Positions 18,881 through 27,523 of a stretch of DNA of 39,550 nucleotides are shown piece after piece. Numbering within the stretch: position 1 is the stretch's first letter; each line of letters opens with the position of its first letter. This DNA comes from Bacillota bacterium (GTDB lineage: Bacteria > Bacillota > Sulfobacillia > UBA8153), in assembly GCA_007130145.1 (NCBI GenBank), contig SLSY01000012.1, positions 1 to 39,550 of the forward strand, in the 5' to 3' direction. The position numbers and the translations under genes were made by a program. Below the pieces are notes generated by a model, which saw only the letters and a program-made list of their open reading frames with translations, did not search any database and had not been told where the DNA came from.

Positions 18881-19723
18881 ATGTACAGAATCCGTAAGCG
18901 CCAGGACCTGTCGGACATCATCAAACTACTGGTTGTGGACGCACCACTTATTGCAGAAAAGGCGGAGCCAGGACAGTTTATCATCCTGCGCGTGAGGGAT
19001 CAGGGAGAAAGGATCCCCCTTACCATCGCCGATTTTGACCGGGAGAAGGGCCAGATCACACTGGTCTTTCAGATCGTAGGTCTAACCACTGAACTGTTGG
19101 CTCAACTGGAGGAAGGTGATTCGCTGTTGGATCTGGTCGGTCCGCTTGGCCAGCCCGCCCATCTACCCGAGAGTGGACGCGTGGCATGCATTGCCGGGGG
19201 CGTAGGGGTAGCTCCTCTCTATCCCAAGGCCAAGGCCCTCTACCAGGCAGGCGTGGAAGTGATCACCATTATTGGAGCCCGAGACAAGGGCCTCTTGGTC
19301 ATGACCGATATGATGGATGCTGTCAGTACGCAAATGCATCTGTGTACTGATGACGGCAGCCTAGGCTACCATGGATTCGTCTCCGGTCGCCTGCAGGAAC
19401 TGCTTGATGCCGGTGAACAGTTTGACGAGGTAGTTGCCATTGGGCCGTTGCCCATGATGCGCGCTACTGTGGAAGTGACCCGACCCTTGGGTCTGAAGAC
19501 GTGGGTTAGCCTAAACCCCATTATGGTTGACGGTACCGGTATGTGCGGAGCTTGCCGGGTATCCGTGGGTGATAAGACGCAATTTGCGTGTGTCGATGGC
19601 CCCATGTTTGATGGTCATTTGGTGGATTTTGCCGAGGCAATGCGCCGTAATCAAATGTATTTACCAGAAGAAGAGAAGTCTTTGCACCATTGTCGTTGCC
19701 GAGGAGGTATCTCACATGCCTAA
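18881..19723 (+). CDS. nfnA: NfnA-like FAD/NAD-binding [2Fe-2S] subunit (bifurcating transhydrogenase)
   Basis: A 280-residue protein of the ferredoxin-NADP reductase/dihydroorotate dehydrogenase electron-transfer family. It shows the FAD-binding RIPLTIADFD, the pyridine nucleotide motif AGGVGVAPLYPKAKAL, and a [2Fe-2S] site VDGTGMCGACRVSVG...FACVDGP, in which Asp217, Cys222, Cys225 and Cys237 sit as in the small subunit of NADH-dependent ferredoxin:NADP oxidoreductase (Nfn). The next gene encodes the large subunit, which supports electron bifurcation between ferredoxin, NADH and NADPH in the cytoplasm. AGGAGG lies 2 bases before the ATG with GAGGAG further up. A role as a glutamate synthase or sulfide dehydrogenase partner is the alternative annotation for this family. 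Confidence 0.87.
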   Translation: MYRIRKRQDLSDIIKLLVVDAPLIAEKAEPGQFIILRVRDQGERIPLTIADFDREKGQITLVFQIVGLTTELLAQLEEGDSLLDLVGPLGQPAHLPESGRVACIAGGVGVAPLYPKAKALYQAGVEVITIIGARDKGLLVMTDMMDAVSTQMHLCTDDGSLGYHGFVSGRLQELLDAGEQFDEVVAIGPLPMMRATVEVTRPLGLKTWVSLNPIMVDGTGMCGACRVSVGDKTQFACVDGPMFDGHLVDFAEAMRRNQMYLPEEEKSLHHCRCRGGISHA

Positions 19724-21101
19724 GCGAACAGAGAGACTACCCATGCCCACACAGCCAGCAGACGAACGAATTGAGAATTTTGAGGAAGTCAATCTGGGAT
19801 TTACCGCCGACTTGGCTCAAGCTGAAGCCAAGCGCTGCATTCAATGCAAGAAACCCAAGTGCGTGGAAGGCTGCCCCGTCAATGTGAAGATCCCCGAATT
19901 CATTGCACAGATTGTCGAAGGTGAATATGTCGAGGCGGGGCGCATCTTGAAGGAAACGAACAACTTGCCAGCCATCTGCGGACGCGTTTGCCCGCAGGAA
20001 GAGCAATGCGAGAAACTGTGCATCTTGGGCAAACGCGGAGAACCGGTGGCCATTGGTCGTCTCGAGCGATTTGCGGCCGATTGTGAAAGAGAACAGGGAG
20101 GAGACATGACGGTTGAGCGTCCTTCTCGTCCCGGCAAAGTCGCCATCGTGGGCTCGGGGCCCGCAGGGTTAACTTGCGCAGCTGACTTAGCCATCCGGGG
20201 TTTTGATGTGACCATGTTTGAGGCGCTCCATGCCCCCGGCGGCGTTCTCATGTATGGTATTCCCGAATTCCGCTTGCCCAAGCAGATTGTGCAAACTGAG
20301 GTCAATTACGTCCTGAGCCTGGGCGTTACATTGGAGAAGAATGTTATCATCGGCCGTACCCTCACCATCGACGATCTCTTCAAGCAAGGCTTTCAGGCGG
20401 TGTTTCTCGGTACGGGTGCGGGGTTGCCTAAATTCATGAACATTCCTGGTGAGAACCTGAACGGAGTATACTCAGCCAATGAGTGGCTTACGCGTGTCAA
20501 TCTCATGAAGGCTTACGATTTCCCCTGTTGGGATACACCCGTCAAACCCGGAAGCCGGGTTGCTGTTGTCGGAGGCGGCAACGTAGCGATGGATGCCGTA
20601 CGTTGTGCCCGTCGTCTCGGAGCCGAGAAAGCGAGCATTGTCTACCGCCGCTCACGCCAGGAGATGCCAGCTCGCGCCGAAGAGGTGGAACACGCCGAGC
20701 ATGAGGGCATTGAATTTCATATGTTGACCAATCCTTTGCGCGTACTGGGCGATGACAAGGGATGGGTGACAGGTATGGAATGCATTCGCATGGAACTGGG
20801 CGAACCTGATGCTTCAGGACGCCGTCGGCCCGTTCCCATCGAGGGTTCAGAGTTCATTATGCCTGTGGACATCGCCGTTATGGCTCTTGGCACGAGCCCT
20901 AATCCGATCGTTGCCACGACCACTACGGGCTTGGATACAGAGCGTTGGGGCGGCTTGATAGCGGATGAAACTGGCCTTACATCTCGCCCCGGGGTGTGGG
21001 CCGGTGGCGATGCTGTGACCGGAGCCGCCACGGTGATCGAGGCCATGGGAGCTGGGAAGAAAGCGGCCGAGGCCATCGCCTGTTATCTGGAGACACTGTG
21101 A
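19716..21101 (+). CDS. nfnB: NfnB-like large subunit (GltD/GltA family)
   Basis: A 461-residue flavoprotein of the glutamate synthase small-chain family, often annotated gltA. The N-terminus has the iron-sulfur cysteines CIQCKKPKCVEGCP (41, 44, 49, 53) and CGRVCPQEEQCEKLC (88, 92, 98, 102). Two Rossmann motifs follow (VAIVGSGPAGLTCAADLAIRG in part, and VAVVGGGNVAMDAVRCARRLG in part), with GGVLMYGIPEFRLPK between. ATG 19716 lies 7 bases after GAGGAGGT and overlaps the nfnA end by 8 bases. A longer open frame back to 19527 is not used. The tight pairing with nfnA favours Nfn over a true glutamate synthase; no large GOGAT subunit is present. Confidence 0.88.
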   Translation: MPKRTERLPMPTQPADERIENFEEVNLGFTADLAQAEAKRCIQCKKPKCVEGCPVNVKIPEFIAQIVEGEYVEAGRILKETNNLPAICGRVCPQEEQCEKLCILGKRGEPVAIGRLERFAADCEREQGGDMTVERPSRPGKVAIVGSGPAGLTCAADLAIRGFDVTMFEALHAPGGVLMYGIPEFRLPKQIVQTEVNYVLSLGVTLEKNVIIGRTLTIDDLFKQGFQAVFLGTGAGLPKFMNIPGENLNGVYSANEWLTRVNLMKAYDFPCWDTPVKPGSRVAVVGGGNVAMDAVRCARRLGAEKASIVYRRSRQEMPARAEEVEHAEHEGIEFHMLTNPLRVLGDDKGWVTGMECIRMELGEPDASGRRRPVPIEGSEFIMPVDIAVMALGTSPNPIVATTTTGLDTERWGGLIADETGLTSRPGVWAGGDAVTGAATVIEAMGAGKKAAEAIACYLETL

Positions 21102-23208: not shown

Positions 23209-23448
23209 ATGACCGATGCTACCCAAGACGCACCCTTCGAAGAACGTGTGTCGCGGTTGGAGACCATTGTACGAGAACTAGAGATGGGTACCGTCTCGCT
23301 GGAAGAAGCGCTTCGGCTTTTCGAGGAAGGCATCAAATTAGCCCGCGCCCTGAAAAGCCAGCTCGACTACGCAGAAACCCGCATCGAAAAGATCCTGGAA
23401 GATGGCCGCTTGATCCCACTCGCTACCGAGACGGATGATGATGGATGA
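23209..23448 (+). CDS. xseB: Exodeoxyribonuclease VII small subunit
   Basis: A 79-residue helical protein with the family sequence FEERVSRLETIVRELEMGTVSLEEALRLFEEGIKLA (given in part). AAGGAGAGGG precedes the ATG by about 6 bases. Its stop overlaps the ispA start (ATGA), as is common in Firmicutes. Confidence 0.95.
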   Translation: MTDATQDAPFEERVSRLETIVRELEMGTVSLEEALRLFEEGIKLARALKSQLDYAETRIEKILEDGRLIPLATETDDDG

Positions 23449-24284
23449 CGAGCCAAATGTTTGACAATTTCTATTCCGACGCCAAAGCGGCTGTATCCGA
23501 GTATCTAACCAATACGTTTGCCCGGCTTTCAGCACCACCTCTCCTGAAGGAAGCGATGAGTTATGCGGCGTTGGATGGTGGTAAACTGCTTCGCCCTACC
23601 CTGGTGCTGGGCGCAGCTCTTGACAGCGGTGGAAATAGAGATGACGCTTTGCCTCTGGCTGCTGCAGCCGAGCTGATACACGTCTACTCCCTCGTGCATG
23701 ACGATCTTCCTGCCATGGACAATGATGACGTTAGGAGGGGAAAACCTTCGTGTCACCGCCAGTACGGCGAAGCCATGGCTATACTGGCAGGCAATGCTCT
23801 GATGAGCCTGGCCTTTGAACTGGCTTTAGAGGCTCGACCAACCAGTCAGGCAGCGAGTGCCGCACGAATTCTTGCCCATGCCAACGGGTGCTCCGGCATA
23901 TGTGGCGGTCAGGCCATAGATCTCGGGTTGGAAGGAGAACTCCAGGGGCCAGAGGACATCCTGAACTGCTATCGGTTAAAGACCGGTGTTCTCTTTGCTG
24001 CCTGTGCCAGTGCGGGTGCCGTCCTGGTTCGTGGGGATGCAGCTCCTGTGCGCGCTATGGAGCAATATGGATGGCATTTGGGAGAGGCCTTTCAAATCTA
24101 TGATGATCTGGGGGAACGAGCGGTAGAACCCCGCAGCCTGCTGGGAGTCATGGCGCGAAGCGAGGCTTACTCCCTGGCCAAAGAACGCATGCAGCGGGCT
24201 CGTCATCTACTGCCTCGAGCATTCGTGCGACTAAGAGAACTCACGCTATACGTTGAAGAGATAGCAGATAAGGCCCAGACATGA
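23445..24284 (+). CDS. ispA: Polyprenyl synthetase of the IspA family, with degenerate second aspartate motif
   Basis: A 279-residue trans-isoprenyl diphosphate synthase, expected to make farnesyl or geranylgeranyl diphosphate. It has GGKLLRPTLV, the first aspartate-rich motif LVHDDLPAMDNDDVRRGKPS and CGGQAIDLGLEGE. The second motif, usually DDILD followed by GD...LGKP.G.D...KxTYP, reads YDDLGERAVEPRSLLGV: the third aspartate is missing and a stretch of about 20 residues that normally includes a conserved lysine is absent. The frame stays open, so this is a real divergence or an in-frame deletion. Activity may be changed. The start overlaps the xseB stop. The gene lies just upstream of the OLE RNA locus, its usual neighbour. 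Confidence 0.88.
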   Translation: MTSQMFDNFYSDAKAAVSEYLTNTFARLSAPPLLKEAMSYAALDGGKLLRPTLVLGAALDSGGNRDDALPLAAAAELIHVYSLVHDDLPAMDNDDVRRGKPSCHRQYGEAMAILAGNALMSLAFELALEARPTSQAASAARILAHANGCSGICGGQAIDLGLEGELQGPEDILNCYRLKTGVLFAACASAGAVLVRGDAAPVRAMEQYGWHLGEAFQIYDDLGERAVEPRSLLGVMARSEAYSLAKERMQRARHLLPRAFVRLRELTLYVEEIADKAQT

Positions 24285-24335: not shown

Positions 24336-24364
24336 TTGAAATCTACGGGCAGACAATATATAAT
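24336..24364 (+). promoter_or_regulatory. Strong sigma-A-type promoter of OLE RNA
   Basis: TTGAAA (24336-24341) and TATAAT (24359-24364) are exactly 17 bases apart, with one mismatch in twelve to the consensus. Transcription should start near 24371, at the beginning of the structured non-coding stretch. It is among the best promoter matches in the window, consistent with an abundant RNA. Confidence 0.85.
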
Positions 24365-24370
24365 CAACAA

Positions 24371-25010
24371 TGCATATTCCGGTAGCCTTTGGGGGCGCAG
24401 TATTCTAGTCGTTCATGATTTCTCTGAGGACGGGCCTAAAAATCCGTCGCGGGCACATCGATGAAGTTTCTGGTGCTGGCTGGTAACGCCCAGTTGCGGG
24501 TTGGTGCTGGGAGTTAAGAGAGGTGGGGCGATCCACAATGGCATGTGGGCGTTGACCCTTCTCTCGTGGAGGCCCAAGTACGTGAAGGTGCCACCTTGGG
24601 CACACATTTACGGCTTGGAGATTAAACCTGTATGCGGTACCGATACTATGGGAGGGTGCTGTGTGCAGTGTAGCCTGTCTTGAGCGGCTTAGAAGGATGG
24701 GGCATTAGCAAGCAGCAAGGACGCGGCCGTGTCCTCGCGGTTTGGCTCCGAAATCTAGGCTGCAAAAAGGACTAGGAGAGTATCTGGACGGTGGGGAAAG
24801 CCCCTAGACTGTTCCTCGAGGGCAAGCGGGGATTAAAGTGTGGTCTCAGTGGTAATCTAGCATTGCTGCACGCCAGCAAAGCAGGGTTAATGGGAAACCG
24901 CCGCTCCGGTAACGGGCGGCCTCCTGACTGGGAAAGCCTGCTAGACCTAAGCCGCAACATTTACCCGCTTGCTCGCCCCCATTGGATTGCCGGAGTGTTC
25001 TTCTTTTTTT
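24371..25010 (+). ncRNA. ole: OLE RNA (ornate, large, extremophilic RNA)
   Basis: About 640 nt without a supported gene lie between ispA and the gene for the OLE-associated membrane protein OapA, followed by dxs. That is the classical position of OLE RNA in extremophilic and anaerobic Firmicutes. The stretch starts after a near-consensus promoter and ends with TTCTTCTTTTTTTG (24997-25010). Pairings I could find include 24485-24492 with 24546-24553 (8 bp), 24572-24578 with 24595-24601 (7 bp), 24719-24724 with 24729-24734 (GGCC loop), and 24904-24912 with 24987-24995 (9 bp, one G-U) just before the T-tract. OLE RNA is known to form a complex with OapA at the membrane and, in Bacillus halodurans, to affect tolerance to ethanol, cold and magnesium. 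The exact ends are estimates, and assignment rests on synteny, size and structure rather than a covariance search. Confidence 0.88.
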
Positions 25011-25072
25011 GCGTTTCTTGGATGCCTCCCGGGGACATCAGTCATCTCATCAGCAGGAAAGGATCGGTAAGA

Positions 25073-25624
25073 GTGCGAAACCCTAGAAGCAGACGGGGTC
25101 CCAACTGGTCAGCTGGACTGCAATTGGGCATTACTACGTTTGTGGCCGCATGTTTGGTGACATTGCTGGCACAGGAAGCCATGCGAGGACTCAGTATCCT
25201 AGGAGCCCTGATGATTCTGATGTTCATCACGTTGGCCGGCATCATTTCTGATGTTGTGGGGGTTGCGGTCACCGTGGCTGACGAGGTTCCGTTTCATGCC
25301 CGTGCTTCTAAGCGACTCCGAGGGGCTCGCCAGAGTCTATGGTTGGTGCGGAACGCAGATCGAGTGGCCGCACTGGCCAACGATGTCATCGGCGATCTGG
25401 CCGGTACCATTAGTGGAGCGGCCGTGGCTGTCCTGACCATTCGCCTGGCACTGGGGATGCCGGAAGGGTATGATCGTCTGGTGCATATCGGGGGTGTTGC
25501 CCTCTTGGCAGGTTTGACTGTGGGGGGCAAGGCCGTAGGGAAGGGTTATGCCTTGGCCCACGCCAATGAGATTGTGTCCGGAGTAGGGCGGTTACTGGCA
25601 CTTGTACAGAGGAAGGCGAGATAA
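25073..25624 (+). CDS. oapA: OLE-associated protein A (OapA), membrane protein
   Basis: A 183-residue protein with hydrophobic segments near residues 18-33, 39-60, 108-126 and 138-152, the four-helix build of OapA. Between the second and third helices is a basic stretch (HARASKRLRGARQSL, 75-89), followed by NDVIGDLAG with the DxxxD motif at Asp104 and Asp108, which I recall as conserved in OapA. The GTG at 25073 follows AAAGGA by 9 bases. An open frame continues upstream to 24791 through the 3' half of the OLE RNA, but it lacks a good start there and its extra part is not membrane-like. OapA binds OLE RNA and places it at the membrane. The dxs gene begins right after its stop. Confidence 0.9.
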   Translation: MRNPRSRRGPNWSAGLQLGITTFVAACLVTLLAQEAMRGLSILGALMILMFITLAGIISDVVGVAVTVADEVPFHARASKRLRGARQSLWLVRNADRVAALANDVIGDLAGTISGAAVAVLTIRLALGMPEGYDRLVHIGGVALLAGLTVGGKAVGKGYALAHANEIVSGVGRLLALVQRKAR

Positions 25625-27523
25625 TTGAGACTCCTGAGCATGGTTGATGATCCGAGTATTTTGAAAAAACTTTCGTCGGGGCAATTGGCCCAGCTAGCCG
25701 CCGAACTGCGGGAAGAGATTGTGCAAACCGTAGCTCGAACCGGCGGCCATTTGGCAGCCAGCCTCGGAGCTGTGGAGCTAACGGTGGCACTGCATACAGT
25801 GTTTTCCTCGCCCCGCGATAAACTCCTTTGGGACGTGGGTCATCAAAGCTATGCTCACAAACTCTTGACCGGACGCCGTGAGGTGTTTCATACTCTTCGT
25901 CAGAGGAAAGGTATCAGTGGGTTCCCTAAGCGCTCGGAGAGCCCTCACGACGTCTTTGACGTGGGTCACAGCAGCACTGCCATTTCCACCGCTTTGGGCT
26001 TTGCCGTGGCCCGTGATCTAGCAGGTGAAAATCATCGGGTGGTAGCGGTCGTAGGGGATGGAGCCTTGACAGGCGGCCTTGCCTTTGAGGGTCTTAACAA
26101 CGCAGGTCAGCTACGAAGCAACCTCATCGTAGTCATAAACGACAACGAGATGTCCATCTCATCGAATGTAGGCGCACTGTCGGCTTACCTGTCGCGGATT
26201 CGCTCGGCACCAACCTATTCCCGGGTTAAGGCCGATCTGAATCAGGCGCTGGGACGCATACCGTATGTCGGCCCCACAGTGCGTGATGCCGCGATGCGAG
26301 TGAAGGCGAGTGTGCGGCATCTGGTCGTACCAGGCGCGCTCTTTGAAGAACTGGGCTTCACTTATTTGGGCCCCATCAACGGGCACGATATTGCCCAGAT
26401 GCAGGAAATCCTGCGGGGAGCAGCCATGATACCTGGCCCAGTGATGGTGCATGTGCTCACCCGCAAAGGAAAAGGCTATGCCCCTGCTGAACGGGATCCC
26501 GATCGATATCATGGGCCAGGCCCCTTCGATCGTGAGACCGGGGCAATGCTGAGCAAGAAGAAACGCAGCTTCTCGGATGCGTTTGGTGATGCGTTGGTGC
26601 AATTGGCTGAAAAAGATGAACGCGTGTGCGCTATTACCGCTGCTATGCCTGGCGGAACCGGATTGGACGAGTTTGCTCGACGATTTCCTCAACGTTTTTA
26701 TGATGTGGGCATAGCCGAGCAACATGCCGTCACGTTCGCTGCCGGCTTGGCGGCCGGAGGCTTGCGTCCGGTAGTTGCCATATATTCTACCTTCCTACAA
26801 CGAGCCTATGATCAAATCGTCCACGACATCTGCCTCCAAAACCTCCCCGTCATTCTGGCCATCGATCGAGCTGGTCTCGTCGGTGAGGACGGAGAGACCC
26901 ACCAGGGCCAGTTTGACTTATCTTACTTGAGCCATCTGCCCAATCTGGCAGTGCTGGCTCCGGCTAATGAACGCGATATCCACGACATGTTAGCGGCCGC
27001 CACTCAGCTGGATGGCCCCTGCGCATTGCGCTATCCTCGTGGAGCAGTATGGCCAGGAACTGATCTCCCGTCGGCTTTACCATCCCATCCTCTCGGAGGG
27101 GTCATTCTCAAGAGGGGGAAGAGAGTTGCCTTGATGGCTCTGGGCAGTATGGTACCGGTTGCGCTGGGGGCGGCCCAGTTGCTGGAAGAAGCTGGCCAAA
27201 CCGTTACGGTGGTTAACGCGCGGGTGGTACGGCCACTGGATGAGCCATTGGTCCTGGAGCTAGCCCGACGGCACCAACACATATTCACCCTTGAAGAGAA
27301 TGCAGTCCACGGCGGCTTTGGGAGCTTGGTCATGGCATGTCTGACCGAACACGAGGTGGACTGTCGAGTGAAAGCACTGGGACTACCTCATCGCTTCATC
27401 GAGCACGGTAAGCAAGCTGAGTTGCGAAGCGCCTGTGGACTCAGTTCCGAAGCTGTGGCCGAGTCGGTTATGCGTAGACTGCAACGTGCTTCTTTGGGAG
27501 AGCATCATGAAGCAGCGCCTTGA
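25625..27523 (+). CDS. dxs: 1-deoxy-D-xylulose-5-phosphate synthase
   Basis: Dxs joins pyruvate and glyceraldehyde 3-phosphate in the first step of the MEP isoprenoid pathway, using thiamine diphosphate. The 632-residue product has WDVGHQSYAHKLLTGR, the ThDP motif VVGDGALTGGLAFEGLNNAG, GPINGHDI, the central IAEQHAVTFAAGLA and DRAGLVGEDGETHQG. The TTG at 25625 follows GAGGAAGGCGAG by a few bases and immediately follows the oapA stop. The product then starts MRLLSMVDDP, similar to MDLLS...DP in homologues; ATG 25640 has no ribosome binding site. Confidence 0.96.
   Translation: MRLLSMVDDPSILKKLSSGQLAQLAAELREEIVQTVARTGGHLAASLGAVELTVALHTVFSSPRDKLLWDVGHQSYAHKLLTGRREVFHTLRQRKGISGFPKRSESPHDVFDVGHSSTAISTALGFAVARDLAGENHRVVAVVGDGALTGGLAFEGLNNAGQLRSNLIVVINDNEMSISSNVGALSAYLSRIRSAPTYSRVKADLNQALGRIPYVGPTVRDAAMRVKASVRHLVVPGALFEELGFTYLGPINGHDIAQMQEILRGAAMIPGPVMVHVLTRKGKGYAPAERDPDRYHGPGPFDRETGAMLSKKKRSFSDAFGDALVQLAEKDERVCAITAAMPGGTGLDEFARRFPQRFYDVGIAEQHAVTFAAGLAAGGLRPVVAIYSTFLQRAYDQIVHDICLQNLPVILAIDRAGLVGEDGETHQGQFDLSYLSHLPNLAVLAPANERDIHDMLAAATQLDGPCALRYPRGAVWPGTDLPSALPSHPLGGVILKRGKRVALMALGSMVPVALGAAQLLEEAGQTVTVVNARVVRPLDEPLVLELARRHQHIFTLEENAVHGGFGSLVMACLTEHEVDCRVKALGLPHRFIEHGKQAELRSACGLSSEAVAESVMRRLQRASLGEHHEAAP

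Follow-up and report, generated by a model that had tools for sequence, protein, structure and literature searches.

OLE RNAs rank among the largest structured RNAs of bacteria and are associated with the membrane; their biochemical role is not established and their function is debated. The locus considered here raises the question of what occupies the space between ispA, which ends at 24284, and dxs, which starts at 25625, in a 39,550-nucleotide stretch of a Bacillota bacterium genome (contig SLSY01000012.1), hereafter the window. The original prediction placed at this site an OLE RNA with its own strong promoter, several helices and a T-rich end, followed by a gene for a four-helix protein with the DxxxD motif of OapA. 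A cmscan search against all Rfam families returned an OLE match (RF01071) at 24376-24995 on the plus strand, with 453.3 bits and an E-value of 4.8e-130 (gathering score 50), which runs end to end over model positions 1-616 of 616. The covariance search through which the prediction was to be checked has thus upheld an OLE RNA between ispA and dxs over the whole model, and the sequence does show the coordinates, the promoter and the T-rich end that had been predicted. The RNA is found once in the 2.37-Mb assembly, and its score lies well inside the range of its taxonomic class. We regard it as practically certain that the locus is a complete, ordinary member of a known family beside its usual partner oapA. 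Between ispA and dxs, the plus strand holds the OLE RNA and oapA, with the following features.

23445 to 24284, plus strand: ispA-type prenyl synthase gene, the upstream neighbour (PF00348, E 1e-43; NF045485)
24336 to 24364, plus strand: predicted sigma-A type promoter, TTGAAA-17 nt-TATAAT (11 of 12 matches; start expected near 24371)
24376 to 24995, plus strand: OLE RNA, full length (RF01071 match; 144 of 151 model pairs canonical; covariation in 31 relatives)
24377 to 24396, plus strand: 5' arm of the closing stem P1 (core 24390-24396, outer part 24377-24387)
24709 to 24744, plus strand: outer part of stem P9 with its apical GGCC loop (24709-24723 pairs with 24730-24744)
24900 to 24920, plus strand: P13-region hairpin with a GUAA tetraloop (position from the Rfam mapping; GNRA type by eye in the alignment)
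24975 to 24995, plus strand: 3' arm of the closing stem P1 (core 24975-24981)
25004 to 25010, plus strand: run of seven T, a possible transcript end, shortly 3' of P1 and without a local hairpin
25073 to 25624, plus strand: oapA, 183 aa, GTG start, DVIGD motif (homology to OLE-adjoining genes)
25625 to 27523, plus strand: dxs, the downstream neighbour (PF13292, E 1e-119)

A full-length match could still belong to a degenerate, non-functional remnant, and the pairing of the RNA bears directly on this reading. The Rfam structure maps 151 pairs on the window, 144 of them canonical, and, together with compensatory change among the relatives, this bears out the several helices expected in the region; the seven non-canonical pairs are what speaks for a remnant. 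When 31 sequences are aligned with MAFFT, 86.1% of the cells are paired, against 40-48% when the partners are slid by 1-3 columns; changes on both sides are found in 108 of the 165 pairs and amount to 571 cells, where shuffling gives 221. The covariation score reaches 0.348, compared with 0.184 when shuffled and at most 0.141 when slid. The nearest relative, G001, is 71% identical over the RNA; between this sequence and the window, 21 pairs have changed on both sides and another 21 on one side while still pairing, and 17 are not canonical in both. The pairs kept despite such changes point to selection on the structure, and the paired changes are strong evidence that the region is neither a decayed remnant nor coding sequence that extends oapA. 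With the 453-bit match running over the full length, well inside the class range, a remnant is scarcely credible. An apparently broken OLE in another relative (G012) was rejected as such, as the RNA there runs off the contig end.

Published OLE models name a P1. This closing stem is unpaired in the Rfam model and was added here (24390-24396 with 24975-24981). Among the 31 sequences, 99.1% of the cells of its core are paired, with both-side changes in six of the seven pairs. The stem extends outward in the window to 24377/24995, and these outermost pairs align poorly in the relatives (160 of 341 cells paired). At the core pair 24393-24978, G-C replaces U-A, a change that among the 31 aligned sequences is common to the window and G001 only. 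Judged by eye from the alignment rows, the loop of the P13 region, the OapB site in Halalkalibacterium halodurans, also stays of GNRA type.

The P9 stem connects this RNA with the clostridial OLE RNAs, for which cryo-EM has described dimers in which the P9 loops of the two copies form a kissing contact (PMC12286853, PMC12265935). At its apex, the P9 stem of the window carries the self-complementary loop GGCC, as do most relatives whose P9 is complete and also the OLE of Clostridium acetobutylicum and C. botulinum. The loop core reads AGCT and GCGC in the sequences L028 and L029, respectively, still self-complementary in each, and the stem is shortened and has no self-complementary loop in L006, L011 and L012. 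The loop letters of P5.1 and P6.1 are near constant across sequences. The P9 replacements, two in number, fit the kissing dimer and are suggestive, and by analogy with the cryo-EM structures the RNA of the window would probably dimerise through P9. The further dimer contacts, P4 and P5.1-P6.1, belong to the clostridial structures.

The gene downstream of the RNA has 183 codons, with a GTG start at 25073, a stop at 25622-25624 and AGGAAAGG upstream at 25055-25062. The window's protein has no match in the Pfam or NCBIfam models, nor was any credible similarity found to the sequences of the PDB. However, homologues of this protein adjoin the RNA in 25 of an initial set of 29 further OLE loci, with identities of 33-61% in alignment A5, which includes G001. 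The DxxxD motif reads D-V-I-G-D at residues 104-108, and both aspartates are invariant in 27 OapA sequences (D103 and D107 in A5 numbering, 104 and 108 in the full protein). The AlphaFold model (pLDDT 87.6) consists of four long helices followed by one more at the C-terminus, in agreement with the four-helix protein with a DxxxD motif that had been proposed. The C-terminus in the window and in L038 (G001) is about 10-25 residues shorter than in most class members.

A Foldseek search of the PDB with this model gives membrane domains of CNNM/CorB/CorC proteins at ranks 1-3, 5 and 6 by E-value (probability 0.8-1.0, E above 0.1). Against the CNNM model (PF01595), the OapA proteins of the class reach weak scores of about 20-28 bits, the window's protein falling below the Pfam threshold. 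OapA and MpfA have been proposed to be related (PMC11332333), and the weak CNNM matches and the modelled fold would agree with this kinship. Contrary to MpfA, CorB and CorC, the OapA of the window, at 183 aa, is too short for CBS and CorC_HlyC domains, and the combination of these domains with a PF01595 match above the cut-off, which characterizes CNNM/MpfA proteins, is not found in it. The identification as OapA, for which a family match had been hoped, is instead provided by homology to the OLE-adjoining gene, an exact co-occurrence with OLE and the resemblance to the CNNM fold. On these grounds, 25073-25624 encodes a true OapA.

The start of this gene could be questioned, since a GTG-started open frame begins at 24791, in phase with oapA, and ends at the stop of that gene; the region upstream would then be a leader or coding extension of oapA, and 24791-25624 a single 277-aa protein over the 3' half of OLE. 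Upstream of oapA, the relatives have anywhere between 0 and 120 open codons, the longer protein has no family match, and the DNA changes in this region are compensatory base-pair substitutions. The 277-aa frame was therefore rejected as a chance in-frame extension of oapA, and we give this reading next to no weight. The full-length OLE RNA followed by a 183-codon oapA remains our reading of the locus.

How this RNA is transcribed is the next question. For the H. halodurans cluster, a review reports transcription as one polycistronic RNA (PMC12265935), and here the flanking genes on both sides are co-directional; OLE could accordingly be made only by processing of an ispA-OLE-oapA-dxs transcript, with the promoter match upstream of it due to chance. 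This match consists of TTGAAA at 24336-24341 and TATAAT at 24359-24364, separated by 17 nt, with 11 of 12 consensus positions, and the RNA start predicted from it, near 24371, lies a few bases ahead of P1. The region contains three promoter-like sites in total, against 1.1 expected. For 70 loci of the class, the search covered roughly 120 nt ahead of the conserved AGTAT, and the best site was taken from each. A site with at least 9 of 12 matches precedes OLE in 40 of the 70, compared with 3.3 after shuffling (7 at most) and with 4 of 68 loci in a control stretch further upstream, mostly ispA; for at least 10 of 12 matches, the counts are 22 of 70, 0.42 shuffled and 1 of 68 in the control. G001, from the same family, keeps the site as TTGCCA-18-TACAAT amid diverged surroundings. 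These counts and the retained site make production by processing alone improbable. They lend class-wide support to the strong promoter that had been claimed: the promoter of the window belongs to a pattern in which the OLE RNAs of its relatives would usually have their own, and a transcription start belonging to OLE itself is very probable. In the openly accessible papers, we found no report of a dedicated ole promoter; subscription papers lay mostly outside this search, and such a promoter may already be known.

The 3' end of the transcript is less sharply marked. The seven T at 25004-25010 closely follow the 3' arm of the long closing stem and correspond to the T-rich end that had been predicted, but no local intrinsic terminator hairpin was found after OLE in the window. 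A local terminator follows OLE in 5 of 31 loci, against 1.2 expected, and, as many class members are without a clear one, transcription would be likely to read through into oapA. For the class as a whole, we lean towards a view in which OLE would form a separate transcription unit inside the isoprenoid/recN/spo0A cluster, started by a promoter of its own and ended, in some lineages, by its own terminator, rather than being a processed polycistronic piece, and in which the P9 loop would evolve only among the self-complementary GGCC, AGCT and GCGC.

A profile of ten OapA proteins, searched against 81 genomes of the same class, matched once and only once in 72 of them, which are the same 72 genomes that carry OLE; the other nine (G007, G014, G021, G032, G048, G061, G070, G078 and G080) are without both. 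In six genomes (G009, G027, G034, G045, G058 and G063, of families f9, f27 and f30), OapA is present but away from OLE, and an apparent loss of OapA from these six was rejected on finding the gene encoded elsewhere in the genome. In G027, the unlinked oapA has an Fe-S oxidoreductase-like frame on one side and an ABC transporter ATPase pair on the other (frames read by eye), and no Rfam RNA was found beside it.

OLE hosts and MpfA/CNNM proteins have been described as anticorrelated (PMC11332333). The genome of the window has no match to a CNNM/MpfA protein, and in the class a full CNNM protein is found in 7 of the 9 OLE-less genomes versus 15 of the 72 OLE genomes (Fisher p = 0.001 by genome, 0.09 by family). 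The direction matches the published anticorrelation; the difference is significant when genomes are counted but not when families are, a weak test. All sampled members of family f7 (G007, G032, G048, G061 and G070) are without OLE and OapA and have one strong CNNM protein each, which makes this family a possible natural case of replacement. As a separate observation, the OLE of families f6 and f40 (G006, G031, G047, G069, G060 and G077) scores only 272-308 bits, with model matches of 515-540 bases and one of 635, and these genomes also carry a full CNNM protein, unlike most OLE genomes.

The remaining known partners are encoded elsewhere in the genome. OapB lies between map and infA, with 7k9b, 'OLE-associated protein B', as best PDB match (E 1.2e-9); OapC/YbxF is flanked by rpoC and rpsL, with a match to the YbxF structure 4lck (E 2.5e-15); and bS21 is also present. 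OapB and OapC are common, although not universal, in OLE-bearing genomes. Judged by its gene content, the genome carries the full set of known OLE partners and is without MpfA/CNNM, as published for OLE hosts.

The gene order around the RNA is amaP, DUF2273, nusB, an Nfn-type pair, folD, xseA, xseB, ispA, OLE, oapA, dxs, tlyA, nadK, argR, recN, spoIVB, spo0A and steA, where nusB and xseA are assigned from position and a reading of the sequence only. The published OLE neighbourhood comprises isoprenoid, DNA repair, sporulation and cell-wall genes (PMC12265935), and the isoprenoid and spore neighbours found here are this published context, as had been foreseen. The Nfn-type pair mentioned in the original prediction is indeed present at 18881-21098, between nusB and folD, and consists of a sulfide/dihydroorotate dehydrogenase-like FAD/NAD-binding protein and gltA; the agreement concerns its presence only. 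Near the start of the window, a tandem glycine riboswitch (67.5 and 41.7 bits) is found at 569-742, upstream of ORFs starting at 805.

With H. halodurans and other Bacillota, the OLE of the window shares the full model length (RF01071), the conserved blocks, the multi-stem architecture and an oapA directly downstream, within the same isoprenoid, DNA repair, sporulation and cell-wall cluster, in a genome with OapB, OapC and bS21 and without MpfA. It differs from them by a near-consensus promoter directly before the RNA and by a long G+C-rich P1 with G-C for U-A at 24393-24978. The window contains no new kind of element, and the additions are a promoter pattern seen across the class, the covariation in stem P1 and the changes in the P9 loop. 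Overall, we hold with high confidence that a spore-forming Bacillota bacterium carries here a standard OLE ribonucleoprotein locus of full length. Following the work on H. halodurans and the cryo-EM structures, OLE would be transcribed from its own promoter and dimerise via loop contacts including P9, and OapA, as a CNNM-like membrane protein, would tie it to the membrane, where the complex would be stress-responsive and probably Mg2+-related. By analogy, we narrowly favour the possibility that OapA and OLE together do the work of MpfA in Mg2+ and stress homeostasis.

As the biochemical role of OLE is not established, each well-documented lineage is useful. In this class, OLE is near-universal (72 of the 81 sampled genomes) and diverged enough for covariation, and natural variants exist in the form of OapA unlinked in six genomes, shortened P9 stems and OLE-less families with MpfA. 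These properties make the class useful for comparisons that bear on the dimer and on the Mg2+ hypothesis. If P9 does evolve only among self-complementary loops, this would be evolutionary evidence for the cryo-EM dimer in living cells.
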